In this document: piece by piece, positions 22,574-37,121 of the stretch
Layout: each line of letters starts with the position of its first letter
Position numbering within the stretch: the stretch's first letter is position 1
Virus record (IMG/VR): IMGVR_UViG_3300020202_000132
Coordinates: 1 to 42,625 of that record
DNA from: a virus
DNA: 42,625 nucleotides
Strand: one strand, 5' to 3'
The notes under the pieces: model-generated
The model's database searches: none
What the model was told of the DNA's origin: nothing
What the model saw: only the letters and a program-made list of their open reading frames with translations
Made by a program: the position numbers and the translations under genes

Positions 22574-22678
22574 GCTGAACCCCACGTCAGAGCCAACCCG
22601 ATTGGGGCTCCTGAGTGGTCGGAAAGCGTCGAGTGGGCGAAACATCAGAGGTCGGGTTGGCTCACCTTTACGTTAGCC
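22574..22678 (-). other. attC-like site A
   Basis: A 105-bp imperfect palindrome between small genes. On the minus strand it opens with core box GGCTAAC (22672-22678), whose TAA is the stop of the upstream gene. Inner arms are perfect 12-mers (GAGCCAACCCGA at 22590-22601, complement at 22652-22663), and it ends with GTTCAGC (22574-22580). This is the architecture of integron attC sites: outer R boxes, inner L arms and a variable loop. Confidence 0.7.
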
Positions 22679-22939
22679 TTTCCATGGGCGCGTGTTTTTC
22701 AGGTGCATTGTTGCCCCAAAAAGATGCTCGAACATCCCATGGCAGTTCGTCAGATGCACGTTTCCCTCCTTGTCGATACCCACGACAAAGACAGGGCTAC
22801 CATCCATCGTGATCGTCACCTCTTGCGCTCGGGCGTCGAGCGTTGTCGCGACCGCACTTTCACCATATCCACGAGCGCGTTGGTGACTCACCTTCGGCTG
22901 TTGGTCCGTGATGATTTCTACTGTGAATTTCGGTTTCAT
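22673..22939 (-). CDS. Cassette-like gene, unknown
   Basis: An 88-residue beta-rich protein (FTVEIITDQQPKV, VFVVGIDKEGNVHL). It starts seven bases after the core box of site B and stops exactly in the core box of site A (GGC-TAA-C), so it fills one cassette unit. No family recognised. Confidence 0.7.
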   Translation of the reverse strand: MKPKFTVEIITDQQPKVSHQRARGYGESAVATTLDARAQEVTITMDGSPVFVVGIDKEGNVHLTNCHGMFEHLFGATMHLKNTRPWKG

Positions 22940-22945
22940 AAAAGA

Positions 22946-23034
22946 GGCTAACCAGACATTGCAGAGAACGGCGACAGAGCGTCAGGGAGAAGGCGGACGC
23001 CCCTCATCGCCGTCTCTGATTCTTGGTGTTAGTC
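22946..23034 (-). other. attC-like site B
   Basis: An 89-bp imperfect palindrome. The minus strand opens with GACTAAC (23028-23034), containing the stop of the upstream gene, and closes with GTTAGCC (22946-22952). Inner arms of 12 and 13 bases (23007-23018, 22962-22974) pair with one extra T unpaired, as in authentic attC stems. Confidence 0.75.
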
Positions 23035-23235
23035 TGAGTTTTCTGGTGGAAGAAGGGTGAATTGGTGAAAGCCATTTCCGAGTTTCACCATGCGGACACG
23101 AAAGCCTAGCTGCTTGGCCGTCCATCGCAGGGAGGCAGCCCGCTCAAAGGGAAGCTGGATGGATGACCCTACGGTCATGGCTTGGATAACGGCCCTGTTC
23201 TGGCCGCTCCATTCCGCATGGACAAGCTTAGGCAT
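23029..23235 (-). CDS. Cassette-like gene, unknown
   Basis: A 68-residue basic protein (WSGQNRAVIQAMTVGSSIQLPFE). Its start overlaps the stop of the next upstream gene (ATGCCTAA), and its TAA lies in the core box of site B. Third gene of a tightly overlapping three-gene unit. No family is recognised. Confidence 0.65.
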   Translation of the reverse strand: MPKLVHAEWSGQNRAVIQAMTVGSSIQLPFERAASLRWTAKQLGFRVRMVKLGNGFHQFTLLPPENSD

Positions 23236-23440
23236 AGTGGTCTTCTCCGTTTCGCTCCGCTCGCAGCTTCCAGCACCATTCATTGAAGCTCTGGGCTGAC
23301 TCGGTGCAGACGGCCGCAGGCGGTTGCTCAGGGGTGGCGTGGGGGTTCCAGGGGAAGTGCCGCCAAGCCCGCTCCTGGCGCTCCCATTCGTCCCAAGTGC
23401 GCTCATTGCGCCTTCGCTCATCATCTCGGTCAAAGGGCAT
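23228..23440 (-). CDS. Charged cassette-like protein, unknown
   Basis: A 70-residue protein with an Arg/Asp/Glu-rich N-terminus (DRDDERRRNERTWDEWERQ) and a Trp-containing end (SFNEWCWKLR). It overlaps both neighbours by a few bases (TGATG at its start). The longer upstream reading is shadow of the SWIM-like gene. Confidence 0.6.
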   Translation of the reverse strand: MPFDRDDERRRNERTWDEWERQERAWRHFPWNPHATPEQPPAAVCTESAQSFNEWCWKLRAERNGEDHYA

Positions 23441-23706
23441 CAGGGAGGGGATAGCTCGCGGATATGGCGGTTGAGGTATGCCTCGCGGGCGGCGGTGAGA
23501 TGGCGGCAGCGTTCGGGTTTGAGGGTGCGCTTCCACTCGGGGAAGCGGCGGCAGGACCAATCCTCGCAGGAGCAGTGCCCAAGGGGTTGGTGCTCGGCCA
23601 GGTCCACCATATGCACCTCGCCGGGCCTGCTCCACGATTCGACGGTGGCCCGGAAAGGTTCGCCGGAGAGGAAGGAGACCTTTACCGTGCGGAAGCACTT
23701 AGGCAT
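23440..23706 (-). CDS. SWIM-type zinc-finger-like protein
   Basis: An 88-residue protein with HCSCEDWSC followed about 18 residues later by CRHL, the C-x-C ... C-x-H spacing of SWIM zinc fingers, which bind DNA or proteins. An N-terminal beta part (VSFLSGEPFRATVE) precedes it. First clear gene of the three-gene unit; its start overlaps a 22-codon frame beginning right after the 45-bp repeat copy 1. Confidence 0.65.
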   Translation of the reverse strand: MPKCFRTVKVSFLSGEPFRATVESWSRPGEVHMVDLAEHQPLGHCSCEDWSCRRFPEWKRTLKPERCRHLTAAREAYLNRHIRELSPP

Positions 23707-23764
23707 TCAGTGTTTCACAGACAGGACGTAGTGCGTGCAACCATACATGCCGCCGACTATAATT

Positions 23765-23812
23765 CATTTTGATATACGAACGCGGGTTCCCAGAATCACT
23801 TGTTCGGCCAAG
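23765..23812 (-). repeat. 45-bp dispersed repeat, copy 1
   Basis: Nearly identical to 32850-32894 and 37960-38007. On the minus strand it carries the last codons and stop of the upstream gene (AACAAGTGA), then TTCTGGGAACCCGCG, GTTCGTATATC and AAAATG. It begins with a CCGAAC core box and contains GTTCG, so it is a possible short recombination site of the same system. Confidence 0.8.
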
Positions 23813-24134
23813 ATCCAACGGCAGCGGCAATTTGTTGCTGGAACTCGCGCAGACACGCTTCTTCCATTTTAGGGAAGAAGAATTTCCACCATATGAGCCG
23901 GTTATATGTCGCCATCACGAACGGCAGTCCCATGTGATCGTAGTCGGATCCCGATGACGGATTGCAGGATGCCTGATACCTATTTTCCGCGGCTGCATAT
24001 TCGTCTGATGTGGGTTTCGGGATATTTGCTGGCCACTGCGCCCACGCTAACGGAACCCTGAAGGCCGAACCAGTCGATACAGCCAACGCGGGCGAGCGCC
24101 CGTCCTCATTCGCTTCGGTCTTTTGGTTGCTCAA
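23796..24134 (-). CDS. Cassette-like gene, unknown, start uncertain
   Basis: A frame of 112 codons from a TTG that overlaps the previous stop (TTGA). The first 25 codons lie inside attC-like site C, so the biological start may instead be the ATG at 23933 (45 residues). The C-terminal half is protein-like (ATYNRLIWWKFFFPKMEEACLREFQQQ) and ends WPNK in repeat copy 1. The gene at 37991-38191 ends with the same four residues at repeat copy 3. Confidence 0.55.
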   Translation of the reverse strand: MSNQKTEANEDGRSPALAVSTGSAFRVPLAWAQWPANIPKPTSDEYAAAENRYQASCNPSSGSDYDHMGLPFVMATYNRLIWWKFFFPKMEEACLREFQQQIAAAVGSWPNK

Positions 24135-24170
24135 AGTTTGTCCTCCGCGTGGCTGATCTCCACGTTAGAG
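24064..24170 (-). other. attC-like site C
   Basis: A 107-bp imperfect palindrome. Minus-strand core CTCTAAC (24164-24170), inner arm CAGCCACGCGG (24145-24155), partner arm CCGCGTTGGCTG (24080-24091) with one extra T, closing core GTTCGGC (24064-24070). The upstream gene reads into the site and the downstream frame emerges from it. Confidence 0.75.
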
Positions 24171-24508
24171 GTGCCCTGTGATTCGCTCGCCGAGGTTGGC
24201 AGGGAGATGGCGATGAGAAGGCCTCGGCATACGTCATGGCGGTTCTCCGCCGTGATTTTGTGACGGGCGTTTCCACATCGCACCCAGACCGGCAGCGCGA
24301 GTTCTCCGGTAAGCACGGCTACCATGAGCGAGCCGGGGCTGTAGCTTCGGCCATCGACCTCGGGCACCTCTAACAACTCGCCAGAGGGAACGCGCACAAT
24401 GGCCCCGCGATTTCCAGCGGCGGCTTGTGCGCTCGCGGTCTCGGCGTCGTGGTCACGGATTTGCCGTTCCATGTCCGCGGCATCGTCGATTAGCTTTTGT
24501 GTATTCAC
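24131..24508 (-). CDS. Cassette-like gene, unknown
   Basis: A 125-residue protein with an acidic helical N-terminus and a beta-rich centre (GAIVRVPSGELLEVPEVDG, LPVWVRCGNARHKI). GTG start overlapping the previous TGA (GTGA). The last 15 codons run through the first arm of site C. No family is recognised. Confidence 0.65.
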   Translation of the reverse strand: MNTQKLIDDAADMERQIRDHDAETASAQAAAGNRGAIVRVPSGELLEVPEVDGRSYSPGSLMVAVLTGELALPVWVRCGNARHKITAENRHDVCRGLLIAISLPTSASESQGTSNVEISHAEDKL

Positions 24509-24945
24509 AGTCTGGATTCTCCGTTCTGGTGCGCGTTCCTCATCTCGGCGTTAGCCCCTATCATCGTAAGGGCTTTGGTGACGTAGCAGAGTTGATAGCG
24601 GCGAAAGCCGCGCTCCATGTCGCCGAGATACGGCGCAGAGATTTCGAGATGGGCGGCGAGCGCGCGAAGCGATACTCCCGCGGCTTCGCGACGGACACGC
24701 ATCTGGCGGCCCACCTCTGTCCACTCATCGCGGATCGCTTTGGCCTGCTCTACCTCTATTTCTTCGAGGCGCGCCAGTCGCAGCGTGAGGTGCATGGGGC
24801 TAACCAGATCGCCAGTGCCAACGCGCACAGTGGCCCCGTGAACTTCGCGGCACGGTTCTACGCGCGGACCATTTCCGAACAGCCGCTCACGCTGGCGGCG
24901 CTCCATCTCCAAGATCGATTGTGGGGTTTCGCTGTCGCTGCTCAT
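24505..24945 (-). CDS. XRE-type helix-turn-helix regulator
   Basis: A 146-residue protein. A helix-turn-helix of the Cro/CI (XRE) class occupies about residues 84-125 (AAGVSLRALAAHLEISAPYLGDMERG). The N-terminal half shares the phrase ATVRVGTGDLVSP with the style of the next gene (AIVRVPSGELLEV). It ends in a reduced attC-like sequence (GGCTAAC). Likely a DNA-binding regulator carried as a cassette; its target is unknown. Confidence 0.7.
   Translation of the reverse strand: MSSDSETPQSILEMERRQRERLFGNGPRVEPCREVHGATVRVGTGDLVSPMHLTLRLARLEEIEVEQAKAIRDEWTEVGRQMRVRREAAGVSLRALAAHLEISAPYLGDMERGFRRYQLCYVTKALTMIGANAEMRNAHQNGESRL
24530..24556 (-). other. Reduced attC-like half site
   Basis: On the plus strand GCGCGTTCCTCATCTCGGC followed by GTTAGCC matches the arm-plus-core half of the complete sites (CGCGT..GGCTCAT...GTTAG). 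The partner arm and second core are missing because the next gene begins here. Similar reduced sites lie at about 24966-24992 and 25381-25411. Confidence 0.45.
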
Positions 24946-24961
24946 TTAGTCGGTTCTCCGC

Positions 24962-25363
24962 TCAAGTGCGCGTCGGCACATCTCCGTTGTTCTCCTGCTC
25001 AGGATGACCACGACAGCCAGTGTTGTAGTCGAAGTTGTCGCAGTCGCCGACTGGGATCACCCGACGGCCGAGATAGTCCTGGAGCTTGAGGTATTCGCGC
25101 GCCTCGCGGCCGGTGCATTCACTGCCGTCCTCTTTCGTGAAGAGCCCAGCAAGGCGAGAGTCTTTCCATCGGAGTGCGCCAGACACGCAGAGGCACATAT
25201 GCACACGCGTGCGGACCACCGCAGGAGAACCCCTCCCCAGACCCAACGCGCTGACTGGGCCTGCGGGCTCGGTCATGGCGCTTACGCTCTCGGCCAGAGG
25301 GCTGGCGTGATCCGTGGTGAGTTCGCGCATCAGCGCGCGGTTGAGCGGTGTATCCGTGTTCAT
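24962..25363 (-). CDS. Cassette-like gene with Cys-rich end, unknown
   Basis: A 133-residue protein. The ATG at 25363 (MNTDTPLNRALMREL) is preferred; longer readings run through the upstream reduced attC site. The N-terminal part is helical (DHASPLAESVSAM). The C-terminal half has Cys residues in CLCVSG, ECTGREAREYL and CDNFDYNTGCRGH, perhaps a metal site. No family is recognised. Confidence 0.65.
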   Translation of the reverse strand: MNTDTPLNRALMRELTTDHASPLAESVSAMTEPAGPVSALGLGRGSPAVVRTRVHMCLCVSGALRWKDSRLAGLFTKEDGSECTGREAREYLKLQDYLGRRVIPVGDCDNFDYNTGCRGHPEQENNGDVPTRT

Positions 25364-25370
25364 ACTACTA

Positions 25371-25411
25371 ATCTGCGCTCGTGGCGCGTTGGTCATGTCG
25401 ATTGTTAGCCA
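25371..25411 (-). other. Short attC-like hairpin
   Basis: On the minus strand GGCTAAC and AATC lead to GCGC-CACGA-GCGC and then GATTAG. Outer CTAA..ATC / GAT..TTAG and inner GCGC arms pair, giving a site about 40 bp long. The TAA of GGCTAAC is the stop codon of the upstream gene. Confidence 0.45.
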
Positions 25412-25617
25412 CGGAGGCCGTCCTTGTAGTCCTCTTCCGCTGATTCCATCGACAGGAAGAAGCCGACCATGCCAGCTATCGGGATTAGCATCCACATCCA
25501 CGCGAACGGGGCCAAGCGGCAGTATGGGCGGTTGTGTTCGTAATGGCGTTTTTTAGAGCAGAGCCGAAGCGTTACCTCGGCGTTCAAGTGGCGGAATTTT
25601 GTCCAGACGTGTTTCAT
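25405..25617 (-). CDS. Small membrane protein in cassette
   Basis: A 70-residue protein with a basic N-terminus, one membrane helix (FAWMWMLIPIAGMVGFFL) and an acidic end. It begins shortly after the core box of site D and its TAA lies in the next core box (GGC-TAA-C). Function unknown. Confidence 0.65.
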   Translation of the reverse strand: MKHVWTKFRHLNAEVTLRLCSKKRHYEHNRPYCRLAPFAWMWMLIPIAGMVGFFLSMESAEEDYKDGLRG

Positions 25618-25628
25618 GTTTATCGGAG

Positions 25629-25719
25629 GGCTAACCAGCCCGTAGAGCCAATGCGCATACGGGGTCTGTTTGTTGTTCAGTGTTGAGGGCTGCGCATTGG
25701 CTCACGCGGGATGTTCGGC
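25629..25719 (-). other. attC-like site D
   Basis: A 91-bp palindrome: minus-strand core GCCGAAC (25713-25719), perfect 13-base inner arms GAGCCAATGCGCA (25645-25657) and complement (25691-25703), closing core GTTAGCC (25629-25635). The loop holds the stop of the upstream gene. The same TTGGCTCTACGGG..GGTT segment recurs in site F. Confidence 0.75.
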
Positions 25720-25841
25720 AGTGCCATTACGGCGATAAAGCCGATTATGGCGATAAAGCCGATTATGGTGGCAGCATGGAGCAGCCACATCAGCCAGTCT
25801 GGTGATTCAACCTTACCCTCGAAGTCTTCGGGCTTTTTCAT
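25677..25841 (-). CDS. Small membrane protein in cassette
   Basis: A 54-residue protein with one long membrane segment (LLHAATIIGFIAIIGFIAVMAL). The segment contains a perfect tandem 18-bp duplication (IIGFIA twice). GGAGAC precedes its ATG. The last 15 codons lie in attC-like site D. Second gene of a two-gene unit. Confidence 0.65.
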   Translation of the reverse strand: MKKPEDFEGKVESPDWLMWLLHAATIIGFIAIIGFIAVMALPNIPREPMRSPQH

Positions 25842-25855
25842 GGTCGGTGTCTCCT

Positions 25856-26143
25856 TCACGCGCACACATACACCCGTGCCATCCGCCCCGTGCGGGTGGG
25901 CCTGCGCTGGCCCGTGTCCCGCAGGAGCCCGCGCTTGACCAGCGAGTAAACGCGAGCCGAACAATTCTGGTGAGGGAGCCCTGTCATCATCTCGATCATG
26001 TCGGTGGTGAGGCCGTCATCGCCCCAGCCGCGGACGCAATCCATGACCATGCGTTCGCAGCGCTCCAAATGCGGTTCCATGGATTTGGCAGCGGCGTTGC
26101 TCGTGTCGGTTCCGTTCGTTGGGATGTCTAGTGTCGTGTTCAT
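25856..26143 (-). CDS. Winged-helix DNA-binding protein (putative)
   Basis: A 95-residue protein. Residues 43-85 (GLTTDMIEMMTGLPHQNCSARVYSLVKRGLL) fit a winged helix of the kind that acts on start-site or replication DNA. The following RRPTRTGRMARVY fits the wing. It is preceded by a single core-like CCTAACAATC. It could be a regulator or a replication accessory protein. Confidence 0.65.
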   Translation of the reverse strand: MNTTLDIPTNGTDTSNAAAKSMEPHLERCERMVMDCVRGWGDDGLTTDMIEMMTGLPHQNCSARVYSLVKRGLLRDTGQRRPTRTGRMARVYVCA

Positions 26144-26176
26144 ATAGTGGGATTGTTAGGGTGAAAAACTGGATGG

Positions 26177-26494
26177 TTAAGATTTGGTTGCTTTCTTGAT
26201 CATATGTTGCACGACCCGGAGCGCGTGATTGAACTTTGCTTCACCAACCGTGCGTAAGTATGCCTTCGCTGCATTTGGCACCGCTTTCTTTGTCGTCCGC
26301 TTTGTATTGGGGACAGCCACTCCGGTGGCGATGTGCGTTGCATGCCACACCCCGTCCTGTCCTATAACGGGAGTTACGGCGAACCGCTCGCCAAAGCACT
26401 GGAACGGAAGAAACCCATGCGTCTTCCATGTAAAGGACGGCGGATTGCCTCCTTGAATCGTAACCTCTATTCGGCGCTTTGATTTCATACTCAT
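26177..26494 (-). CDS. Basic protein downstream of helicase loader
   Basis: A 105-residue Lys/Arg-rich protein (TIQGGNPPSFTWKTHGF, then a basic helical end). It begins one base after the loader stop, so it belongs to the replication operon rather than to a cassette. Possibly nucleic-acid binding; no family is recognised. Confidence 0.65.
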   Translation of the reverse strand: MSMKSKRRIEVTIQGGNPPSFTWKTHGFLPFQCFGERFAVTPVIGQDGVWHATHIATGVAVPNTKRTTKKAVPNAAKAYLRTVGEAKFNHALRVVQHMIKKATKS

Positions 26495-26495
26495 T

Positions 26496-27215
26496 TCAGT
26501 TGAATGGTGAATTGATGGAGGTCTCGCATAGCCGGCGGCACACATCCCGCGCGGCATCCTGAGAGCCCAGCGCTAGGCGTTGCTCAAACGGGCTGCCCTG
26601 CGATGCGCTCAAGGCATACTTGGTCGTGATAGCCGTAGGCATTCCCCGGCTGCTCCGGTAGTCGATGACCGTGAAGAAGGCCGACACCACGTGCTCCGTG
26701 GGCTTTCCCTTCCCCACGTCGTCAATAACGAGGAAGGGCCAGCGCTGCACCGCCTGAATCTCCCTCGCCATGCCCGAGCCCCCATAGCGGTGGGCCTTGT
26801 CCAGCTCGCTTTGCCATTGGTGCCAGGGCAGGAACTTGAACTCCCGCGCCTCATCCACCCATAGCCTCCGGCAGAGCTGGACGACGCTGCGGGTCTTTCC
26901 CTGCCCGCTGGGGCCATGGCAGAACGGGGCCTTTGGGCCGAACTTCCAGTTCACCACGGAATGGCACCGCGGGTTCGGATAGAGTGCTGGATTGGAGTCC
27001 TTCAACGGGAGATCTAGATGGTCCCAGGTGTTGAGGCGCTTCATGCGCTCGTTGTGCTCGTGCTCGCGTCTGGCGTTGGCCAGACGCTCCTGTTCGCAGG
27101 GGTCGCAGAGCCCGTTATTGAACACCTCTTCCCCCCAGAGGAAAACGGGGGTGTAGGTGTAGGGTTGGCCGCAGTTCACACAGGCGGCTGTTTTCGTGGC
27201 TGCTGAAGTGGACAT
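26496..27215 (-). CDS. DnaC/IstB-like AAA+ helicase loader
   Basis: A 239-residue ATPase. The N-terminus has a zinc-binding pair of CxxC motifs (CVNC, residues 12-15; CDPC, 37-40). Walker A is GPSGQGKT (residues 101-108) and Walker B is WPFLVIDDVGKG (about 160-171). This matches DnaC-like loaders that place the replicative helicase on phage DNA. No helicase gene is recognised, so host DnaB is probably recruited. It lies between an SSB-like gene and a basic protein gene. Confidence 0.8.
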   Translation of the reverse strand: MSTSAATKTAACVNCGQPYTYTPVFLWGEEVFNNGLCDPCEQERLANARREHEHNERMKRLNTWDHLDLPLKDSNPALYPNPRCHSVVNWKFGPKAPFCHGPSGQGKTRSVVQLCRRLWVDEAREFKFLPWHQWQSELDKAHRYGGSGMAREIQAVQRWPFLVIDDVGKGKPTEHVVSAFFTVIDYRSSRGMPTAITTKYALSASQGSPFEQRLALGSQDAARDVCRRLCETSINSPFN

Positions 27216-27235
27216 AAGTGTTCATGGGGTAGTCC

Positions 27236-27877
27236 TCAGAAGGGCACATCCTCGTCCACCGGGGCCTTGTCGGGCGCATCCCCGGATGGTGGCGGGTTGC
27301 TCTTGCCTCCGGCAAAGGCGCGATACTCATCGCTGCCCTTCGCGAGCGTGACCATCCATTCCGGCATGTTCGCGGGGAACTCCACCTGCCCACCCGAGAC
27401 GAGGGCCTTGTCGATGGCCTCATCCAAGTTGAAGTAGAGCGGCGGATTCTCGGCCGTGAACTTGGTCATGCCCTTGGCCAAGGGCGCCACGGACGTGACA
27501 TTGGCGTAGGTCTTGCCCCCGCTGCTCGTGTGCTGGACCGTCAGCAGGCAGTTGGCGCCAATGAGCCTGTCGATTTCAAAGGTGGAAAGCTCCTCCTCGG
27601 TGAAGGCGCGCCCGCGCCAGTTCTCCAGCACGTGCCGGAGCGTGGCTTTCTTGCCCAGCGAAAGCGTGTAGCGCTGGGAGATGGCCCGCGGGACATTCTT
27701 CTTGTCGCCGAAATCCCCCCGCTCATGGGGAAGCTCCCAGATGAGCATGATTTTCGGTCGAGGCTGGAACTTCTCGGACGGCTGGGTGCCGATGGCGACA
27801 CAGCCATAGCACACGGCTTGGTGGCTGCCGGCCGCAATCGGCGGGGCAGATTCGGAGTGAGGAGCTTTTATTGGCAT
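27236..27877 (-). CDS. SSB-like DNA-binding protein (DUF669-like)
   Basis: A 213-residue protein with a beta-rich core (IMLIWELP, FEIDRLIGANCLLTVQH) and an acidic, Pro-rich tail ending DEDVPF, the layout of phage single-strand DNA-binding proteins in which the acidic tail recruits partners. Its place next to the helicase loader supports a replication/recombination role. The ATG at 27877 is chosen because the upstream gene ends five bases before it. Confidence 0.65.
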   Translation of the reverse strand: MPIKAPHSESAPPIAAGSHQAVCYGCVAIGTQPSEKFQPRPKIMLIWELPHERGDFGDKKNVPRAISQRYTLSLGKKATLRHVLENWRGRAFTEEELSTFEIDRLIGANCLLTVQHTSSGGKTYANVTSVAPLAKGMTKFTAENPPLYFNLDEAIDKALVSGGQVEFPANMPEWMVTLAKGSDEYRAFAGGKSNPPPSGDAPDKAPVDEDVPF

Positions 27878-27882
27878 GGGAA

Positions 27883-28059
27883 TTACTGGAAAATCACGTC
27901 TTTGCTCACTGCCCGCTGGTTGCAGGTGGCCAGGTTTTCCTGCGTGGCCCGCGTCCATACGTGCACGCGCAGCCGGTTCACTTGTTTAGCCAGCCAGAGG
28001 ATGAAGCTGTGAACGCCCGTGAGGGCGGCAGAAAGCAGGGTAAGGAAGCGGAGTTTCAT
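27883..28059 (-). CDS. Small membrane-anchored protein
   Basis: A 58-residue protein with an N-terminal membrane or signal-anchor segment (FLTLLSAALTGVHSFILWL) followed by a basic amphipathic part. Its ATG overlaps the previous stop (ATGA), and its TAA is five bases before the SSB-like gene. Function unknown. Confidence 0.6.
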   Translation of the reverse strand: MKLRFLTLLSAALTGVHSFILWLAKQVNRLRVHVWTRATQENLATCNQRAVSKDVIFQ

Positions 28060-28259
28060 GGTTCGTGGGGATTCGCCCGGAATGGGGGCAAAAGTCGTCC
28101 TTCCGTCCGCTGCTCCGCGGCCTCATCCGCTGCCCGCTGGGCAGCTATCTGGAGGGCGCGCAGCTCGCGCTCCTCGTCAGGGGTCAGCCCTTCGCCGGAG
28201 CGCTTCCGCACAAGCGCACACTCCCGCAGGGTCTCGGGTTTGAGCCGGAGGATGGTCAC
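28056..28259 (-). CDS. First leftward early gene, unknown
   Basis: A 67-residue charged helical protein (TLRECALVRKRSGEGLTPDEERELRALQ). It opens the leftward early operon opposite the integrase gene. No family is recognised. Confidence 0.65.
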   Translation of the reverse strand: MTILRLKPETLRECALVRKRSGEGLTPDEERELRALQIAAQRAADEAAEQRTEGRLLPPFRANPHEP

Positions 28260-28420
28260 AATCCACCCCCGCTTTCTCGTGACAATGTTACACCGCTACG
28301 AGGGAGACGGATAAAAGGGTCTTCTGCTGCAAAATACCCCCGCTCGTTAATCGAACGCAAATACCTCGGAGTTGTTTGTTTTCGTTTGCAGGACTGTGAC
28401 AGCGTGTGACACAAGCCCTC
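28260..28420. promoter_or_regulatory. Divergent control region between early operon and integrase
   Basis: The 161-bp gap should hold divergent promoters and perhaps the phage attachment site. GTGACAATGTTAC (about 28280-28292) is an imperfect palindrome resembling an operator, and GTGACAG/GTGACAC direct repeats occur at about 28396-28410. No long core suitable for attP could be fixed. Confidence 0.4.
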
Positions 28421-29524
28421 ATGGGTTTCGGGGTCTACAAGCGCGGCAACAGCCCTTATTGGTGGATTTGGTTTGGCACCGGAAAAGACCGAGCCTTCGA
28501 GAGCAGCGGCAAGCGCCGCACCGACCCGCTTGGTTGGAAGCACGCATACGACCTGGCCCGCGCCAGGGCGGGCGATGCCGCGTCGGCCGGGAATAGCAAG
28601 AGCGCTCGATGGGATGCGTGGGTGGAGGACTGGCTTCGCATTCGGATGCCGGATGAGCGGCAAGCGCGCTCCCTGCGGCTCAACCTCATGCACTGGCGCT
28701 TCATTCGAGCATTCCTTGGTGACAGAGGGGTTCTTGAGCCCAAGGGTGTCACCTACGCGCTGGCCATGGACTACCTTGTCTGGCGCCAGAAGAACCGCCG
28801 ACTTCCGCAACGCCCCAAGGTGCAGACCTCCGTGATCGAGGTGAAGCTGTTGAAGCGCGTCCTGTCTGAAGCGGTGAACCGAGGGTTTATTCCCAAGAAC
28901 CCGCTGGCCGAGCTTAAGCTCACTGCTCCGAAGCACAAGGAGAAGCCGGAGATAACTCCGGAGGAAGAGGCCATCATTCGGGCCGCCCTCGCCAAAAGGG
29001 AGGGCCACCTGCCTGTCACTGAACGCTGGATGACGATTTCTTTTCTCTTCGGAATCCGCCATGGCTGGCGTATCGCAGAGACGAGCTTTCCGCTGAAGCG
29101 GGTGAACTTCCAGACATGGGATGTTCTGGTTCACTCCAAGGGGGACCGGTGGCGAACGGTGCCCGTGCACCCCGAGCTTCGTCCGATTCTTTCGGAATTG
29201 AAGGAGTCGGGCGCTGCATTGTCCTGCGTCTTCCCGGAGAACAGTTCGCAGCGCGCGAGCTACCATTGGTCGATGCTGCTTCGCGGGTGTGAGCGAGATA
29301 ACGTCAAAGGCATATTGCCCCATCTCAGCCATCATTGCGGCCGGGTGACGGTCATCTCCCGCTTGGCGCGCGCGGGCGTGCCGGAGCGGGTCGTTATGGA
29401 GTTTGTTGGGCATTGGTCGGTTTCCTGCCACCGAATTTACTCACGAGTTGCGCACGGCGATCTTCAGCGTTGTATCTTGCCAGACGCTCCACCCATCGAA
29501 GCCCCTCCCAGTCCTTCGCGATGA
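28421..29524 (+). CDS. Phage tyrosine integrase
   Basis: A 367-residue site-specific recombinase for lysogenic integration. The catalytic domain is recognisable: HGWR (first Arg), SKGDRW (Lys), the HHCGR box (H-x-x-R), the VGHWS box (His) and RIYSR (nucleophile Tyr). The N-terminal DNA-binding part begins GFGVYKRGN. The ATG at 28421 is preferred to an in-frame GTG five codons upstream. Unlike the second recombinase, it lacks the IntI-type internal insertion. The last 130 bp overlap a leftward gene. Confidence 0.85.
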   Translation: MGFGVYKRGNSPYWWIWFGTGKDRAFESSGKRRTDPLGWKHAYDLARARAGDAASAGNSKSARWDAWVEDWLRIRMPDERQARSLRLNLMHWRFIRAFLGDRGVLEPKGVTYALAMDYLVWRQKNRRLPQRPKVQTSVIEVKLLKRVLSEAVNRGFIPKNPLAELKLTAPKHKEKPEITPEEEAIIRAALAKREGHLPVTERWMTISFLFGIRHGWRIAETSFPLKRVNFQTWDVLVHSKGDRWRTVPVHPELRPILSELKESGAALSCVFPENSSQRASYHWSMLLRGCERDNVKGILPHLSHHCGRVTVISRLARAGVPERVVMEFVGHWSVSCHRIYSRVAHGDLQRCILPDAPPIEAPPSPSR

Positions 29525-29699
29525 ACTGCGGCCAGCGGCGGCGCCATGCGTGAAAGTCGGAAGGGGAGGCATAATTGGGGATGGGGTCGCCAAGGATCAT
29601 CCCTGCCTTGCGAATCATGCAGAGGGTGGTGTGGCACATGCCGGTAGCTTCTTGTAGCTCCTTGCCGCTCATCACCCGGTCTGTGTCCATGGCATTCAT
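29394..29699 (-). CDS. Helix-turn-helix protein, possible excisionase
   Basis: A 101-residue basic protein with a predicted MerR/AlpA-like helix-turn-helix near the start (SGKELQEATGMCHTTLCMIRKAG). Small DNA-binding proteins beside an integrase are often excisionases. It overlaps the integrase 3' end antisense by 131 bp, so the two transcripts may interfere. The ATG could also be at 29690. Confidence 0.55.
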   Translation of the reverse strand: MNAMDTDRVMSGKELQEATGMCHTTLCMIRKAGMILGDPIPNYASPSDFHAWRRRWPQFIAKDWEGLRWVERLARYNAEDRRAQLVSKFGGRKPTNAQQTP

Positions 29700-29786
29700 C
29701 GGAGGAGGATTTTTAGGAAAGATTGAGAGTCTGGCGGACGACGGGCGGACGGATGGATGATTCGCTCTGTCGTTTGGCCTATTCGT

Positions 29787-30047
29787 TCACCCGCGGGTGA
29801 GTTGGGCGATGCGCGGCAGGATCATTCCCTCGAACTTCAGGCCGCGTGGCGTCAGGTGCTCGCGCTCGTATTCGTCGAGTATCGCGCCAATCTGCTCCAA
29901 TTTGGCGAGACGGTCCGCTGCACGGTCTAAGTCCGCTGCGACTTCGAGGAATTTCGTCCTCAGCTTGGCGGGCGATACGACTTGGTCAGCAATGCCACGT
30001 TGCTCCTCGGCAGCGGCGCGAATCACATCGACAGATTTTCGGATCAT
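29787..30047 (-). CDS. Helical protein, unknown
   Basis: An 86-residue all-helical protein (FLEVAADLDRAADRLAKLEQIGAIL). It is the last of a run of small genes whose junctions carry GAACGAA; its TGA is part of that motif (TGAACGAA). Confidence 0.65.
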   Translation of the reverse strand: MIRKSVDVIRAAAEEQRGIADQVVSPAKLRTKFLEVAADLDRAADRLAKLEQIGAILDEYEREHLTPRGLKFEGMILPRIAQLTRG

Positions 30048-30069
30048 AAATTTGGTCCTCTTCGTTCGA

Positions 30070-30225
30070 CTACTTGGTGTAGATTTTCAGGAGCACAGCC
30101 ACGGCGACTAGGCCGAGCGCGGCGAACTGCATCACGCAGCCCCACTTCACGAGCTGCATTGCTATCTCAAATACCTTGTCGGCGATCATGGCGGGTTTCG
30201 TTCGGTGAAATAATGGCCCACGCAT
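30070..30225 (-). CDS. Small membrane protein
   Basis: A 51-residue protein whose ATG overlaps the previous stop (TGATG), or 39 residues from the ATG at 30189. It has one membrane helix near the C-terminus (MQFAALGLVAVAVLLKIY). GAACGAA lies both within its start region and before the next gene. Confidence 0.6.
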   Translation of the reverse strand: MRGPLFHRTKPAMIADKVFEIAMQLVKWGCVMQFAALGLVAVAVLLKIYTK

Positions 30226-30350
30226 CACCACGCGCTACCCACCCCGGATTCGGCGTCTACTTCACCGGAGCGAATCGCGGTTGGTGAGGTTGGTATCACC
30301 AGACTACCTGCCGGGCCTAAGCCTTGTCCGTGTGCGTGGGCCAAAGTCAT
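30225..30350 (-). CDS. Small protein, unknown
   Basis: A 41-residue protein (MTLAHAHGQGLGPAGS...) directly after GAACGAAAA, overlapping the next gene by TGATG. Low complexity; real mainly by its fit between neighbours. Confidence 0.5.
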   Translation of the reverse strand: MTLAHAHGQGLGPAGSLVIPTSPTAIRSGEVDAESGVGSAW

Positions 30351-30363
30351 TTTTCGTTCGAGG

Positions 30364-30639
30364 TTAGGCGGTGACGGCTTCGCTAACGTCGGCAACGGCC
30401 GGATGCCCCACGTCCTCGACCTTGCGGAATCGGTCCGCGTAAAAGGCGTATTCGATGTTCCAGAACGGGTGTGTGGGAGCCACGATCCCAACAACGCGCA
30501 GACCCCAGCGACCCGACACCGGCGACTGAAAGACTGCGCGCACGCAATAGACATGGCCGCACTGTAGGCCGAGCGTGGTTCCGGCTTTGCGCGGCTTGTC
30601 GTCTACGCAAACCACTTTGTCAGATACGTTGAAGTTCAT
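30364..30639 (-). CDS. Small beta-rich protein, unknown
   Basis: A 91-residue beta-rich protein (VSDKVVCVDDKPRKAG, GLQCGHVYCVRAVFQS) resembling an SH3-like or KOW-like barrel. It is preceded by GAACGAACAGCC and ends GCC-TAA-CC, a core-like sequence. Function unknown. Confidence 0.7.
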   Translation of the reverse strand: MNFNVSDKVVCVDDKPRKAGTTLGLQCGHVYCVRAVFQSPVSGRWGLRVVGIVAPTHPFWNIEYAFYADRFRKVEDVGHPAVADVSEAVTA

Positions 30640-30654
30640 GGCTGTTCGTTCGGG

Positions 30655-30873
30655 TCAGTAGTGGCCTCGGCCGCCGCATTGTGAGCAGGGCACAAGCTCG
30701 CCGGGGTGATACCAAAGCGGGTCTTCCTCATGCCCGTCGAACCAGCCATCGCCGCCGCACAGCCCGCACGTTCCGCCGAAGTCGTCGTCATGGCAGACGC
30801 ATTGGTGCCGTGCGTTCCCGCAGCCGGTGCATTCCGGTTCCGGATCCACTTTCTTACACGTCGGGATGCTCAT
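30655..30873 (-). CDS. Zinc-ribbon protein
   Basis: A 72-residue protein with three Cys pairs: CTGC...CVC, CGLCGGDG and CSQCGGRGH. The last two resemble the DnaJ-type CxxCxGxG repeats, so it probably binds zinc. Junction motif AGCGAACGAAC precedes its ATG. Confidence 0.7.
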   Translation of the reverse strand: MSIPTCKKVDPEPECTGCGNARHQCVCHDDDFGGTCGLCGGDGWFDGHEEDPLWYHPGELVPCSQCGGRGHY

Positions 30874-30885
30874 GTTCGTTCGCTG

Positions 30886-31068
30886 TCAGCGTTTCAGTTT
30901 CTTCGCCGCGTTCGCCCACGCTCCGCGGTATCCCTCGAAGCTGTCGCCGCTGCCGAGCATCCGCGGGAAAGGAGCACTCATGTCGGCAACGACAAAGTAT
31001 TCCTGCTCGTGGGTGACGACACACACGGCTTTCGGGAATCTCCTAAGCACTTTCTTTTTCGGCGTCAT
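30886..31068 (-). CDS. Small basic protein, unknown
   Basis: A 60-residue protein (VLRRFPKAVCVVTHEQEYFVV, then a helical basic end WANAAKKLKR). The ATG at 31068 is preferred because it follows the GAACGAA junction; a longer reading overlaps the previous gene. Confidence 0.65.
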   Translation of the reverse strand: MTPKKKVLRRFPKAVCVVTHEQEYFVVADMSAPFPRMLGSGDSFEGYRGAWANAAKKLKR

Positions 31069-31091
31069 AGTCGTTGCTGGTTCGTTCTGCG

Positions 31092-31349
31092 CTACTGGCT
31101 CCACTTGTGGAAAACCTCACCGTCGATGCTCACCGCACCGACTGAACCAGCGGCTTCCTTCGAGTCATACCAAAGCCCGCTGACCTTCGACATCCAGCGC
31201 AGCTTGGGCGTGACGGTTTTGGCCCGTTCAAGCGTCAGCAACTCGCGCACGCGGCTCAGTTGCTCCTGTTGGTCCGTAATGATGATTCGCGCCTCTTCCA
31301 GCGTCTCCGGGCATTGCGCAAGATGCAGCACTTGGCTCATGGATTTCAT
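31092..31349 (-). CDS. Small protein with coiled coil, unknown
   Basis: An 85-residue protein: helical/coiled-coil first half (ARIIITDQQEQLSRVRELLTLERA) and a beta second half (KLRWMSKVSGLWYDSKEAAG). It lies in the GAACGAA-spaced gene run. Confidence 0.65.
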   Translation of the reverse strand: MKSMSQVLHLAQCPETLEEARIIITDQQEQLSRVRELLTLERAKTVTPKLRWMSKVSGLWYDSKEAAGSVGAVSIDGEVFHKWSQ

Positions 31350-31370
31350 CGTGGGTCGGCTCCTCTTCGT

Positions 31371-31628
31371 TCAACGCTTGTGGACGAGCCGGTCGCGGAG
31401 AGTTTCCGGCATCGGTCTCGGGAGCTGATTATTGCGCCAAAGCGACTTGATGTAGGCGTCGGCCTCGTCGCGCTCAGCCCGCGCGTCAGCCAGCGCAGTG
31501 CGCAGGATTTCAATCTCGTCGCGTTGGCGATAGAACGCTTCCGCCACGATCACCTCTGCGGGCTTTGGCGGTAGGTTGCCCGCGTTACGCAATGGCTCGG
31601 GAGTGGAGGCGGTCGGTGATGCGTTCAC
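31371..31628 (-). CDS. Small helical protein, unknown
   Basis: An 85-residue protein with a central coiled coil (EIEILRTALADARAERDEADAYI). GTG start after AACGACGTG. Junction motif TGAACGAAGAGG contains its stop. Confidence 0.65.
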   Translation of the reverse strand: MNASPTASTPEPLRNAGNLPPKPAEVIVAEAFYRQRDEIEILRTALADARAERDEADAYIKSLWRNNQLPRPMPETLRDRLVHKR

Positions 31629-31649
31629 GTCGTTCCTTTCGTTCTGCGG

Positions 31650-31793
31650 TCAGTTGAAAACCAGCTCGGCGGCTGGCACCCAATGCCGACCGGAGACGCA
31701 CTCCACCCACCACCAGCCGGGAGTGTGTGGATGCTCGCGGATAATTCTGACTTCGGCGCTGAGGCCGTTAGCTTTCCATGTGCCGGTTTTCAT
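31650..31793 (-). CDS. Small Trp-rich protein, unknown
   Basis: A 47-residue protein (MKTGTWKANGLSAEV..., with TPGWWWVECVSG), probably a small beta barrel. It starts 12 bases after the stop of the integron-type integrase, with GAACGAAGCC in between. Confidence 0.6.
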   Translation of the reverse strand: MKTGTWKANGLSAEVRIIREHPHTPGWWWVECVSGRHWVPAAELVFN

Positions 31794-31805
31794 CGCAGGC
31801 TTCGT

Positions 31806-32831
31806 TCAGCACGCGAGCGCCTCGACGGAGGCGCGCACATGCACGCCACGCGTGCTGGGGTGCGTGTAGATCATCGTCGTGGCCACGTCTACGTGGCCGA
31901 GAATATCCTGCACGGCGCGAATATCGACGCCGCTCTCCAAGAGATGCGTGGCGTAGGCATGGCGCAGCCGGTGAGGCGTGGCGACGCCGAGTAACCCCAC
32001 GCGCTCGGCCGCCTCGCGCACCGCGGTTTGGAGCGTCTTGTCATGGAGGCGCCACCGCACGAGATGGCCGAGGCGCGGGTGCCTGCAACGTCCAGGCGCG
32101 GCGAAGACGAAATACCACGGCCACGCGAGCCCGTAGCGCGGCGACTTGTTGTAGACCGGATCAGGCAACGCGACAGGGATGCGGTCGAGTTGGTCGCGCT
32201 TGTAGAGCAATTCCACCCGCGCGAGCTGAGCGCGCAACTCCGGCATCAGCGCGCATGGGAGCGGCACGATGCGGTCCTTACCGCCCTTGCCGTTGCGCAG
32301 CAAAATCTCCGACTGCTCCCATCCGATGTCTTGCACGCGGAGATTGAGCACATCGGAGATGCGCATGCCCGTGTGATAGAGCAGCCGGCAGATGAGGCGG
32401 AACGGATAGTCGGGGCTATCGACTACGGCGCCGATGAGGTCGCGCACCTGCGCACGCGTGAGCACGTGCGGGAGGCGCACCGCCATCTTGGGCCGCGGAA
32501 TGTCGCCCAGCTTGCCGAGGGGCTGCTGACGCACATCCTTGTAATACCAAACGAGCGCGTTGAGTGCCTGCTTGAGCGTTGTTGCCGAGCGAGGCGAGGG
32601 GCCGGACACGAGCTGCGCGAGGTAGCGGGTGACCCGCTGGGTGGAGTCGGCCGCGGACCGCGCTTCGGGAGACAAGGCGAGCCATACGCCATAGCGGCGC
32701 ACCCACGCGCAATAACAGCGCTCGGTAGTGAGGGACCACTTGCGGAGGCGGACTGCCGTGCGCGTCGCCTCGACTTGCGCGGAGATAGCCACGCGTTGAG
32801 CCTCCGACAAAGAGGCCCAGCGGCGGCGCAT
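31806..32831 (-). CDS. intI: Integron-type integrase (IntI family)
   Basis: Tyrosine recombinase of 341 residues. Catalytic set: Arg157 (TGMRISD), Lys185 (GKGGKDR), His287/Arg290 (PHRLRH), His313 (LGHVDV), Tyr322 (MIYTH). Between about residues 219 and 268 it has the extra segment that marks integron integrases, with ALPDPV...PRYGLAWPWYFVF and the following RHPRLGHLVRW...DKTLQ. These match, position by position, the class 1 IntI1 segment I recall. IntI enzymes recombine folded single-stranded attC hairpins with attI. The ATG at 32831 has a good GAGG seven bases upstream; a longer start at 32852 adds seven residues. It reads in the same direction as the surrounding cassette-like genes. Confidence 0.85.
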   Translation of the reverse strand: MRRRWASLSEAQRVAISAQVEATRTAVRLRKWSLTTERCYCAWVRRYGVWLALSPEARSAADSTQRVTRYLAQLVSGPSPRSATTLKQALNALVWYYKDVRQQPLGKLGDIPRPKMAVRLPHVLTRAQVRDLIGAVVDSPDYPFRLICRLLYHTGMRISDVLNLRVQDIGWEQSEILLRNGKGGKDRIVPLPCALMPELRAQLARVELLYKRDQLDRIPVALPDPVYNKSPRYGLAWPWYFVFAAPGRCRHPRLGHLVRWRLHDKTLQTAVREAAERVGLLGVATPHRLRHAYATHLLESGVDIRAVQDILGHVDVATTMIYTHPSTRGVHVRASVEALAC

Positions 32832-32849
32832 TATTACCTCGTGCGGCTT

Positions 32850-32894
32850 CATTTTGATATACGAACGCGGGTTCCCAGAATCACTTGTTCGCCA
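32850..32894 (-). repeat. 45-bp dispersed repeat, copy 2 (next to intI)
   Basis: Identical to copy 1 over 42 bases. It lies about 20 bp upstream of the intI start and carries the stop codon of the upstream gene. The position directly upstream of intI is where an attI site or intI promoter would be, so it is the best candidate for the integrase's primary site. Confidence 0.75.
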
Positions 32895-33648
32895 AATCGG
32901 GCGGGTCGATTTTTCCGCCGCACGCAAAGCACACCTCGCGCAGTGAGTAGCCTGGGAAGACTTCGTAGCCTTTTCCTTTGCACACACTGCACGGCTTGGT
33001 TCTAGCGACGCTCGCCAGGCGAGCGGTGTTCACGAGCCAAGCGGCCATCGCCGGATGCGTCGCGGAGCGTTGTGTATGACTCATCACCTGCCATCTGCGC
33101 CGATCGCCAGCTGGCGAGTGTAGCGCGAACGGGAAGTGCACCGCGTTGGGCGCGATGCGCGAGAAGCAGAGCCAGGTTGTTTTCGTGCGGGTGTCCCCCC
33201 ACCACGCTTGCAGCACTTCGGCGGTCCAGAGATCGCCGCGCGATTTGCCAGGCTTCGGAAGTCCGCAGTAATCGAAGAGGCGGGAGTGCGCAGGGTGCTC
33301 CAGCACGCCGCCACATTTCCGCAGCCAAGCCACGCAGAGTGGCCCGAGTTCCTTTTCCCCGGCGAGCGGTTTCGCCTGATGCGCGCAGTAGGCGGACCAC
33401 GAGCGGCACGGCGGATGCGCCACGACGGGCATTCCTCCGGCGAAGGTCCGCATGTCGCGCTTCGCGTCGTAGCACTCCACGCCTGGAAGCGTCTTATAGA
33501 TCGACTTCGCGGCGACCCCGAGCACGGCGACCGGTGATGGCGAACCAGACGCCAGAGCAAACGCGCCTGTCTGTCCGGCCGCGGACGGCTCAGGGTAGGC
33601 GGATGCCAGCGGCTCCGACTGGACTACACTCTCAGGCGCGTTGCTCAT
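32881..33648 (-). CDS. HPPC-motif protein with C-terminal zinc ribbon
   Basis: A 255-residue protein. Residues 75-85 (VVAHPPCRSW) carry a PPC motif like the catalytic loop of cytosine-C5 methyltransferases. The surrounding sequence (GVLEHPAHSRLFDY, EVLQAWWG) matches a phage family annotated as methyltransferase-like, but no clear SAM-binding motif is seen. The C-terminus has two CxxC pairs (CSVCKG, CFACGG). It ends in repeat copy 2. Function uncertain; DNA modification or base chemistry is possible. Confidence 0.6.
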   Translation of the reverse strand: MSNAPESVVQSEPLASAYPEPSAAGQTGAFALASGSPSPVAVLGVAAKSIYKTLPGVECYDAKRDMRTFAGGMPVVAHPPCRSWSAYCAHQAKPLAGEKELGPLCVAWLRKCGGVLEHPAHSRLFDYCGLPKPGKSRGDLWTAEVLQAWWGDTRTKTTWLCFSRIAPNAVHFPFALHSPAGDRRRWQVMSHTQRSATHPAMAAWLVNTARLASVARTKPCSVCKGKGYEVFPGYSLREVCFACGGKIDPPDLANK

Positions 33649-33808
33649 CTGTTTTGTTCAGCGAAGCGGCTTGCTCATCCATTCGCTTGAGTGCGATTTC
33701 CGCATACATGCGCAGCAGGTCGAGTTGTTCGCGCTGGCCAGCTTCGTAGAGTTGGCGCATGATCTCGTTTGCGATCAGTCGGATTTCGTTCGCGTGGGAG
33801 TCGGTCAT
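33632..33808 (-). CDS. Small helical protein, unknown
   Basis: A 58-residue helical protein (NEIRLIANEIMRQLYEAGQREQLDLLRMY). It overlaps the previous gene by four bases (ATGA) and the next gene by 17 bases, so all three are probably co-translated. GAACGAA occurs near its start codon. Confidence 0.65.
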   Translation of the reverse strand: MTDSHANEIRLIANEIMRQLYEAGQREQLDLLRMYAEIALKRMDEQAASLNKTDEQRA

Positions 33809-34041
33809 GGTTGGCGAAATAGATTACCCAGCCAGCAGCGGAAGCGGACCCACAACCCAGCACCGGGCACGCTCGCGGGAATCGCGCACGTGAGTTCGCC
33901 TATCAGTTCGGCGTTGCCCTGAATTGCCCGAAGGCGGATGCGCGCATCGTCGTGATCGCGCGCTGGAAAGTGGAAGCTATAGGTTCCACCGTCGGGATGC
34001 CGATATTCGGCCCCGAATGTTGGCCATTGATCGTTTTTCAT
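33805..34041 (-). CDS. Cassette-like gene, unknown
   Basis: A 78-residue protein (TFGAEYRHPDGGTYSFHFPARDHDDARIRLRAI), beta-rich then helical. It begins seven bases after the closing core of site E and opens a three-gene unit that ends at repeat copy 2. Confidence 0.7.
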   Translation of the reverse strand: MKNDQWPTFGAEYRHPDGGTYSFHFPARDHDDARIRLRAIQGNAELIGELTCAIPASVPGAGLWVRFRCWLGNLFRQP

Positions 34042-34047
34042 CGGAAA

Positions 34048-34153
34048 GCTGAACCAGTCACCTCACGAAACCCGGACGATTCGCTCGTCCGAAGTCGCAG
34101 GGCTGGAGGTGGGCGAATATCAGGGGCCGGGTTTCGTGGGTTCGATGTTCGGC
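34048..34153 (-). other. attC-like site E
   Basis: A 106-bp palindrome: minus-strand core GCCGAAC (34147-34153), perfect 12-base arms CACGAAACCCGG (34064-34075) and complement (34127-34138), closing core GTTCAGC (34048-34054). A second small hairpin lies in the loop (CGGACGA..CGTCCGG). Confidence 0.75.
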
Positions 34154-34398
34154 GGAGGCGGTAGCGGCATCCATGCAACAGGATCGCCCTGAAAGCGTGC
34201 GACCTGCTCACCATCGGTGCCGATCCACGCGGAGTATCTTGGATCGTGCCCCCTACCTCCCGGCGCGTAATACCAGTCCCAGTAGCAGATTCCAATTGAG
34301 CCGTCGGCGAAGGCCACTAGCAGCCGAGGCGGCTCTACCCACTTCGGATCGTTGGTGCGTTCTGCACCGCCGCCCTTGGGCGCAGTGTCCATGGACAT
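34120..34398 (-). CDS. DUF551-like protein in cassette
   Basis: A 92-residue protein with MDTAPKGG near the start and VAWMPLPPPP near the end, the bracketing motifs of the DUF551 family common in phages. Between them are LLVAFADGSIGICYWDWYY and an Arg/Gly-rich linker. The start ATG lies just inside the closing core of site F, and the end runs into site E. The biochemical role of the family is unknown to me. Confidence 0.75.
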   Translation of the reverse strand: MSMDTAPKGGGAERTNDPKWVEPPRLLVAFADGSIGICYWDWYYAPGGRGHDPRYSAWIGTDGEQVARFQGDPVAWMPLPPPPNIEPTKPGP

Positions 34399-34402
34399 CC
34401 AC

Positions 34403-34509
34403 GCCGAACCACCCGTAGAGCCAACGCGGGGTGCTGCTCCGTTCTTTTTCGTTGAAGTCTTCATGTATTCGAAAGTTTAGAGCCGCGTGGCTCACTTGGA
34501 ATGTTAGAC
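34403..34509 (-). other. attC-like site F
   Basis: A 107-bp palindrome: minus-strand core GTCTAAC (34503-34509), which holds the stop of the upstream gene; arm GAGCCACGCGG (34483-34493); partner CCGCGTTGGCTC (34418-34429) with one extra T; closing core GTTCGGC (34403-34409). It is the closest of the set to classical attC form. Confidence 0.8.
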
Positions 34510-34776
34510 CCCAAGCTCGGCGCGCTCTTCGGGCGTGAGTTTGGCGATGGCGTTCTTTCGGATTTCAGCCTCTCGGCGGCCTTGTGCGTCTCGGCGCAGT
34601 CGTTCCGCATCGCGGCGTTTGTGTTCTTGCCACCATTCCCGAGCCCACTCGGGCACGACGCCCCCGCGGGCTTCGATTTCTCGGCAGCGGTCGCAGGCCA
34701 AGCGAGTCATCGTTTGATGATCGCGATTCTCACGTTCTAGTTGTTCGCGGCTTGGGGCGCCGTCTGAGCATGGCAT
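34504..34776 (-). CDS. Cassette-like zinc-binding helical protein
   Basis: A 90-residue protein with CDRCREIE in the middle and a very basic helical C-terminus (EHKRRDAERLRRDAQGRRE). Its start follows the lone core box at 34786 and its TAA is in the core of site F (GTC-TAA-C). It is the first cassette of the 32.9-34.8 kb cluster. Confidence 0.7.
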   Translation of the reverse strand: MPCSDGAPSREQLERENRDHQTMTRLACDRCREIEARGGVVPEWAREWWQEHKRRDAERLRRDAQGRREAEIRKNAIAKLTPEERAELGV

Positions 34777-34785
34777 AAAGAAAAG

Positions 34786-34792
34786 GTCTAAC
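34786..34792 (-). other. Lone core box at head of cassette cluster
   Basis: GTTAGAC on the minus strand, overlapping the TAG stop of the upstream ribbon-helix-helix gene and preceding the first cassette. There is no paired arm, as expected for an attI-like side of an integron insertion. It could also be chance. Confidence 0.4.
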
Positions 34793-34958
34793 CAGACGCC
34801 ACGGCGCTCTCCGAAATTTCCCGTTTGAGCCATTCCTTGAGCGCTTCGGCCAAGTGCTGATAGCCCTCGGACTCCGCTCGCTGAATGGCCAGCATAAGGC
34901 TTAGGCGCAGGCTAATGGTGTGTCGGGAACCTCGCAATGAGGTTATGTCGTAGGTCAT
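34788..34958 (-). CDS. Ribbon-helix-helix-like regulator
   Basis: A 56-residue protein (RHTISLRLSLMLAIQRAESEGYQHLAEALKEWLK): an N-terminal strand and two helices, as in Arc/MetJ-type repressors. GGAGGAG precedes its ATG. Second gene of a leftward pair opposite two more such genes. Confidence 0.6.
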   Translation of the reverse strand: MTYDITSLRGSRHTISLRLSLMLAIQRAESEGYQHLAEALKEWLKREISESAVASG

Positions 34959-37103: not shown

Positions 37104-37121
37104 GGCATAGTTCCCTATGCC
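37104..37121. promoter_or_regulatory. Perfect 7-bp inverted repeat
   Basis: GGCATAG, spacer TTCC, CTATGCC. It shares the CCTATGCC box with 1442-1479 and 21552-21571. A TTGACC at 37095-37100 just before it could be a promoter -35, but the spacing to a -10 is poor. Candidate operator in front of the structured region. Confidence 0.45.

Follow-up and report, generated by a model that had tools for sequence, protein, structure and literature searches.

Described integrons and the integron of the window

Integrons are usually described as chromosomal, plasmid- or transposon-borne elements. This was also the starting point of a preliminary description of the virus record studied here (IMG/VR record IMGVR_UViG_3300020202_000132, 42,625 bp, analysed over its whole length and hereafter called the window). 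The view is incomplete, as Qi et al. reported integrons of phages in 2023 for Vibrio p16, P1 L-II and Shewanella M16-3 (PMC9892861). These are host or class 1 integrons in canonical orientation, and the cassettes of M16-3 and p16 are arranged in the canonical divergent manner. The window likewise contains an integron within a phage genome, and M16-3 resembles it further in possessing attI both at the integron and at a cluster of attC sites lacking integron integrases (CALIN). What separates the window from these examples is an integron integrase (IntI) clade that is restricted to phages and distributed over unrelated ones, the inversion of the cassettes and the presence of a single IntI for three attI sites. 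At the level of sequence, the identity of IntI, the attI copies, the architecture and orientation of the attC sites, the orientation of the open reading frames (ORFs), homologues that start past an attC arm, and cassette gain and loss at G|TT in other phages point to an integron that has very probably been adapted to phage life, with one IntI, three attI sites and inverted cassettes embedded in operons.

The sedentary chromosomal integrons of Vibrio, Methylophilus (L029) and Methylococcaceae (L045) share with the window an IntI with an extra domain, an attI beside a divergent intI, attC sites composed of R'', L'', L' and R' with extrahelical bases, and presumably also exchange at G|TT. By contrast, inverted cassette genes, three attI copies, attC sites covering the 5' ends of genes and the location on a phage are particular to the window. 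Class 1 mobile integrons follow the same recombination logic, but the window carries no resistance cassettes and has no layout driven by the Pc promoter, and its IntI is only 41% identical to the intI1 product. In the virus Rctr41k (KX853513), a series of small phage genes with a common direction likewise ends in an IntI-like gene, while, unlike in the window, the bacterial attC model gave zero matches. A literature search covering few subscription papers and excluding bioRxiv preprints turned up no precedent for a phage-restricted IntI lineage that combines inverted operon-embedded cassettes, attC-internal starts and three attI sites under one IntI.

The integrase and its recombination sites

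The integrase gene intI (31806-32852, minus strand) consists of an uninterrupted ORF at 31806-32831; translation could also start earlier, at an in-frame ATG (32852) that lies 21 nt farther upstream on the border of attI2. The preliminary description had taken this ORF for an IntI with its specific insertion, and this assignment was borne out. The product scored 273.9 bits with the integron integrase profile TIGR02249, above the cutoff of 265. The closest solved structure is that of Vibrio cholerae IntI4 (PDB 2a3v, 1.7e-46, residues 24-330), whose alignment extends over the IntI-specific extra domain, so that this domain is predicted to be present between the catalytic motifs of the window integrase. 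Related IntI proteins were found on four viral contigs, L261, G001, G002 and G003, which are 84%, 80%, 73% and 71% identical to the window protein, respectively. The phylogeny with XerC/D outgroups proposed beforehand comprised 62 proteins including Escherichia coli XerC and XerD. Every IntI was separated from the latter (support 100/100), and the window protein fell among the IntIs, forming one clade with those of G001, G002 and G003 (100/100). A second tyrosine integrase lies outside the integron (28406-29524, plus strand; phrog_1, 2.1e-28) and is probably the lysogeny integrase of the window, in line with the earlier claim that the integron is separate from it.

The attI sites, 43-45 bp long and not noticed in the preliminary description, belong to a 49-nt repeat with copies at 23763, 32848 and 37958, which reads CATTTTGATATACGAACGCGGGTTNCCAGAATCACTTG|TT on the plus strand. 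While attI2 (32850-32893, crossover G32887|T32888) adjoins intI and is kept in this position in all four related contigs, attI1 (23764-23808, crossover G23802|T23803) and attI3 (37960-38003, crossover G37997|T37998), recognized as members of the repeat family, are located about 9 kb and 5 kb from the gene. All three are plus-oriented and 92-96% identical to each other. They match as far as CTT-G|TT and then diverge (GTTCGGC, GTTCGCC, GTTAGGC), as is expected if each copy took up a different first cassette there. Tested against the core GTTRRRY, GTTAGGC at 37997 is a full match, and GTTCGCC and GTTCGGC are off by one or two bases. A GATATACGAA motif followed by the GTT core also directly precedes intI in G001, G002, G003 and L261. 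A DNA pattern for attI gave no match in the viral contigs, and a looser one matched the G001 contig only. The ATG starting intI at attI2 is also kept in the copies attI1 (23767) and attI3 (37963), where it opens short ORFs on the minus strand; these lie downstream of the respective array and may be translated.

According to the preliminary description, palindromic sites of attC type occur in three clusters, and all three are present. A scan for the R''-stem-stem-R' architecture detected eight plus-strand sites, all of them within the clusters, compared to a mean of 0.05 and a maximum of one in 100 shuffles. Together with three sites added by eye, the window harbors approximately 11 attC sites, every one oriented as attI. 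To the left of attI1 lie 22574-22678 (architecture scan, no extrahelical base) and 22946-23034. Array 1 contains 24064-24170; 24368-24556, detected by the scans and including the start codon of ORF 24131-24508 in its long terminal loop; 24798-24992, found by eye (GTGCC-A-ACGCGCAC pairs with GTGCGCGT-C-GGCAC) and ending in the weak R' box GTTGTTC; 25224-25410, also found by eye (GACC-C-AACGCGC pairs with GCGCGTT-GGTC; R' GTTAGCC); and, as its last site, 25629-25719 (architecture scan, no extrahelical base, fold z -4.6). In array 2, 33539-33662 was recognized by eye (GAGC-A-AACGCGCCTG pairs with CAGGCGCGTT-GCTC; fold z -2.6), 34048-34153 by the architecture scan (no extrahelical base, fold z -2.7) and 34403-34509 by the scans. 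Array 3 possesses a single site, 38301-38390 (architecture scan), with the degenerate R' box GTAAGCC.

The palindromes are situated between small operon genes and half of them are symmetric, as would also fit ordinary intercistronic hairpins (terminators or regulatory stems) accompanied by an unrelated phage recombinase. However, the R'' and R' boxes are correctly spaced, and sites with extrahelical bases were confined to the plus orientation, none being found on the minus strand. A strict stem scan of the window found zero sites and a looser one was close to noise; only the scan version with box spacing and extrahelical base set the signal apart from shuffles. A covariance scan for attC had been proposed as well. 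The model R1, trained on 27 attC sites of bacterial chromosomal integrons and thus on zero phage sequence, matched two sites with default filters, again on the plus strand only and with E-values that are rough: 24064-24170 (33.9 bits, E 3.7e-6) and 22946-23034 (33.4 bits, E 4.9e-6), both also found by the scans. As, in addition, the repeats break at G|TT, relatives exchange cassettes at such sites and the recombinase is identified by the TIGR02249 model and the IntI tree, the hairpin explanation is already contradicted and hardly deserves any credence.

Orientation and expression of the cassette genes

In theory, folding of the bottom strand of attC sets the orientation of a cassette so that Pc can express its gene (PMC8946536). 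This usual layout, in which cassette genes run along attC and away from attI, was not found in the window. The gene intI reads away from attI2 and is thus canonical, while the cassette ORFs, located on the minus strand, are inverted relative to the plus-oriented attC and attI sites. The earlier statement that the small genes share one strand therefore stood for the cassette genes and intI, all on the minus strand, and did not extend to the recombination sites. In Treponema denticola, to which the preliminary description had likened this layout, intI is transcribed toward attI and the cassettes have normal orientation (PMC3607928). Although intI and cassette genes share a direction there as in the window, it is intI that is flipped in T. 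denticola, whereas the window combines a normal intI with flipped genes inside its cassettes. An inverted intI of the Treponema type was thus rejected, since it requires both intI toward attI and normal cassettes and the window shows neither.

The inversion is evident from codon usage and from homology. Judged by codon log-odds for which the structural genes of the window served as training set, minus-strand ORFs beat plus-strand ORFs in nearly all cassettes, and the Pfam and PHROG matches of the cassettes (24505-24945, 24962-25501, 34504-34833, 32881-33648) fall on minus frames. In array 1, the attI-proximal ORF 23796-24134, which outscores the plus-strand ORFs, ends with a TGA stop within attI1. 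It is followed by 24131-24508, which has a 4-nt overlap with the next start inside attC, by 24505-24945, encoding a helix-turn-helix (HTH) transcriptional regulator (Pfam HTH_31, 2.8e-9; phrog_1373), by 24962-25396, whose first in-array ATG at 25396 lies inside attC (phrog_21034, 5.5e-14, on frame 24962-25501), and by 25405-25617; apart from the regulator gene, these were also assigned by codon score. The attI-proximal ORF of array 2, 32881-33648, stops in attI2 and matches phrog_12600 (4.8e-42) from residue 39 on; it possibly belongs to a DNA-methylase-like family. Its product is 60% identical to that of one G002 cassette and has homologues in ordinary phages, too. Codon scores also place 33805-34041 (in the same cassette as 33632-33808, with a weak PHROG match) and 34120-34464 on the minus strand. 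The exception is 34504-34833, past the last clear attC of this array, for which the score is ambiguous; its stop lies in the R' box of attC 34403-34509 and it matches phrog_34941 (5.8e-7). In array 3, the attI-proximal ORF 37991-38224 (codon score) stops in attI3, and 38142-38375 starts within attC.

If IntI recombines folded attC sites with attI at G|TT, cassettes would enter and leave in a fixed orientation. A single IntI would thereby serve three attI sites in separate minus-strand stretches of the genome of a temperate phage. The cassette genes read toward attI, in array 2 also toward intI, so that read-through transcription of the phage operon around them is the most likely mode of expression, rather than a Pc promoter borne on attI or intI. 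Phage integrons would thus uncouple orientation from Pc: the orientation is still fixed, with the genes reversed.

The ends of the genes are consistent with such an arrangement. At eight of the 11 attC sites an ORF crosses the R'' arm, in each of the eight cases with the start codon inside attC; the remaining three sites have no such ORF. In most cassettes, the 5' end of the gene would thus coincide with attC, the loop of which contains the start codon, and the product would carry a short N-terminal peptide, rich in Gly and Ser, that is encoded by the R''/L'' arm. The predicted peptides are alike (RVGTGDLVSP, RVPSGELLEV, GVGSGDSLG, ALASGSP and, in L261, VGSGHLV). Residues 1-36 of the protein encoded by 32881-33648 are specified by attC, and its homologues in the phages Doze and Ebor begin at about residue 37, just beyond this part; the fSU1 homologue is annotated with a longer gene. 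Translation of the attC arm was inconsistent in the other phage integrons checked (L008, L012 and L016), and it is therefore proposed for the clade of the window only. The stops of preceding genes fall into the loop or the R box of attC, and attI-proximal genes end with TGA in attI. Given these start codons and upstream stops, attC and attI probably double as cistron junctions.

The product of 32881-33648 has a cysteine-rich C-terminal tail (CSVCKGKG...CFACGGK; window 32881-33000), which reads into attI2 and is missing from the G002 homologue. Perhaps it is a fusion formed at the cassette junction.

Relatives and cassette exchange

The IntI clade of the window and its four relatives (at least 71% identity) was met only in phages and prophages with at least three different backbones. 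The G001 contig contains a transposase, Mu Gam, portal and head genes; L261 is Mu-like by its reading frames and has a terminase match; G002 and G003 are syntenic prophages of TAV type, G003 being identical across 21 kb to a contig of G. colitermitum TAV2. The window, G001 and G002 have IntI and one cassette family in common and almost nothing else, and none of 17 records of phages with a capsid or terminase like that of the window had an IntI match. Capture of a host chromosomal integron fragment, canonical and incidental, is the origin of the complete phage integrons reported so far (PMC9892861), among which M16-3 and p16 possess canonical divergent cassettes. Nevertheless, this origin is quite improbable for the window with its inverted cassettes. 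In 373 genomes of Opitutales (the host of the window was not identified) the sole close IntI was that of G. colitermitum (72%), which is the TAV2 locus of the IMG/VR prophage G003, and the next one was 41% identical. Moreover, the core clade is phage-only in the tree, occurring in the Mu-like G001 and L261 and in TAV-type prophages, and the closest chromosomal IntIs reach about 40-43% identity to it.

Evidence for cassette exchange comes from two pairs of related phages. L011 and L012, which belong to another phage IntI clade, have flanks that are 98.6-99.9% identical, while four cassettes are unique to L011 and two to L012, with the junctions at G|TT of attC or attI. Since the two phages differ by whole cassettes cut at this position, phage integrons do exchange cassettes in nature. 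G002 and G003 are 65-80% identical along most of their length, except for cassette regions of 2.6-2.9 kb without detectable homology, and homology picks up again at attI. The preliminary description had assumed that this phage gains and reshuffles cassettes. Exchange was thus demonstrated for related phages, and from these we infer that the integron of the window is active and exchanges cassettes as well.

Inversion is not confined to the window. Cassettes are likewise inverted in G001, G006, L008, L009 and L014 and mostly in L012, and the inversion occurs at no fewer than three placements in the IntI tree: in the core clade, in a second phage clade and, with L016, among the chromosomal IntIs. 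Chromosomal integrons, by contrast, have normal cassettes. By longest ORFs, 28 chromosomal arrays contained 112 sense and 12 antisense cassettes and the phage arrays 9 and 23 (Fisher p 5e-12), a count in which cassettes are non-independent and L011 and L012 are mixed by length alone; codon scoring shifts most L012 cassettes to antisense. The assumption that phages repeatedly evolved a distinct integron type, with inverted cassettes at dispersed attI sites in phage operons and attC-internal starts, swapped by a phage IntI during evolution so as to alter the accessory gene content and independent of Pc, is thus somewhat favored.

Several observations weigh against an adapted, functional integron. 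R1 recovered just two of the approximately 11 attC sites, and without filters it gave only chance-level short matches (E >= 3.9), among them neither of the default-filter sites, probably because sites with long loops exceed its length window. Extrahelical bases are missing from four palindromes and the R' box of 38301-38390 is mutated, so that some attC sites may be weak. The tree tool flagged a long stem under the core IntI clade, which makes the position of this clade among the IntIs tentative. Finally, the search for relatives yielded none that is near-identical to the window, and exchange at the three attI sites of the window itself is a prediction from other phages. Imperfect R boxes, several attC sites without extrahelical bases and an overlap of ORFs and attC so tight that exchange could harm genes would also suit a degenerate integron, in which IntI is intact by chance, the sites no longer recombine and the cassettes have become fixed phage genes. 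On the other hand, the three attI copies are still 92-96% identical, the IntI reading frame is open, and the syntenic G002 and G003 with an IntI of the same clade possess wholly different cassettes bounded by attI. Degeneration thus appears unlikely, and an integron adapted to phage life is preferred.

Three insertion sites with one integrase and inverted genes suggest that phages adapted the integron to reshuffle genes within their own operons. If this holds true, phages would own a programmable exchange platform that moves small accessory genes between unrelated backbones, providing a site-specific route to a mosaicism otherwise credited to illegitimate or homologous recombination. Such integrons could also be where reversed cassettes come from, and they would provide a natural test of the determinants of cassette orientation. 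The cassettes presumably serve the conflict between phage and host. Read from their sequences, the attI-proximal cassettes of L012 (9030-9780) and of G003 (upstream of attI) seem to encode a Dcm-type DNA methyltransferase, which suggests anti-restriction cargo.

The L012 contig encodes terminase, portal, tape measure and tail genes. It also contains a pair of 121-bp repeats (20032-20152 and 20578-20698, 90% identity) and a reverse transcriptase (phrog_1423), which likely constitute a diversity-generating retroelement in a phage with an active integron. The window itself carries a 143-bp terminal repeat, the copies of which are 98% identical, and its backbone genes include those of the terminase large subunit (2332-4041) and the major head protein (7886-8884). 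Directly left of attI3, the region 37115-37960 has no convincing genes and many short repeats (GGACGGCACTGGTGAGC twice); the window, including this region, matched no Rfam family. The region is possibly a structured non-coding RNA or a regulatory region. Six imperfect coding repeats of 120-126 bp (13412-14150) were detected within an ORF of 849 amino acids (13167-15716), which is similar to ORFs of the tail/fibre region in G002 and G003.

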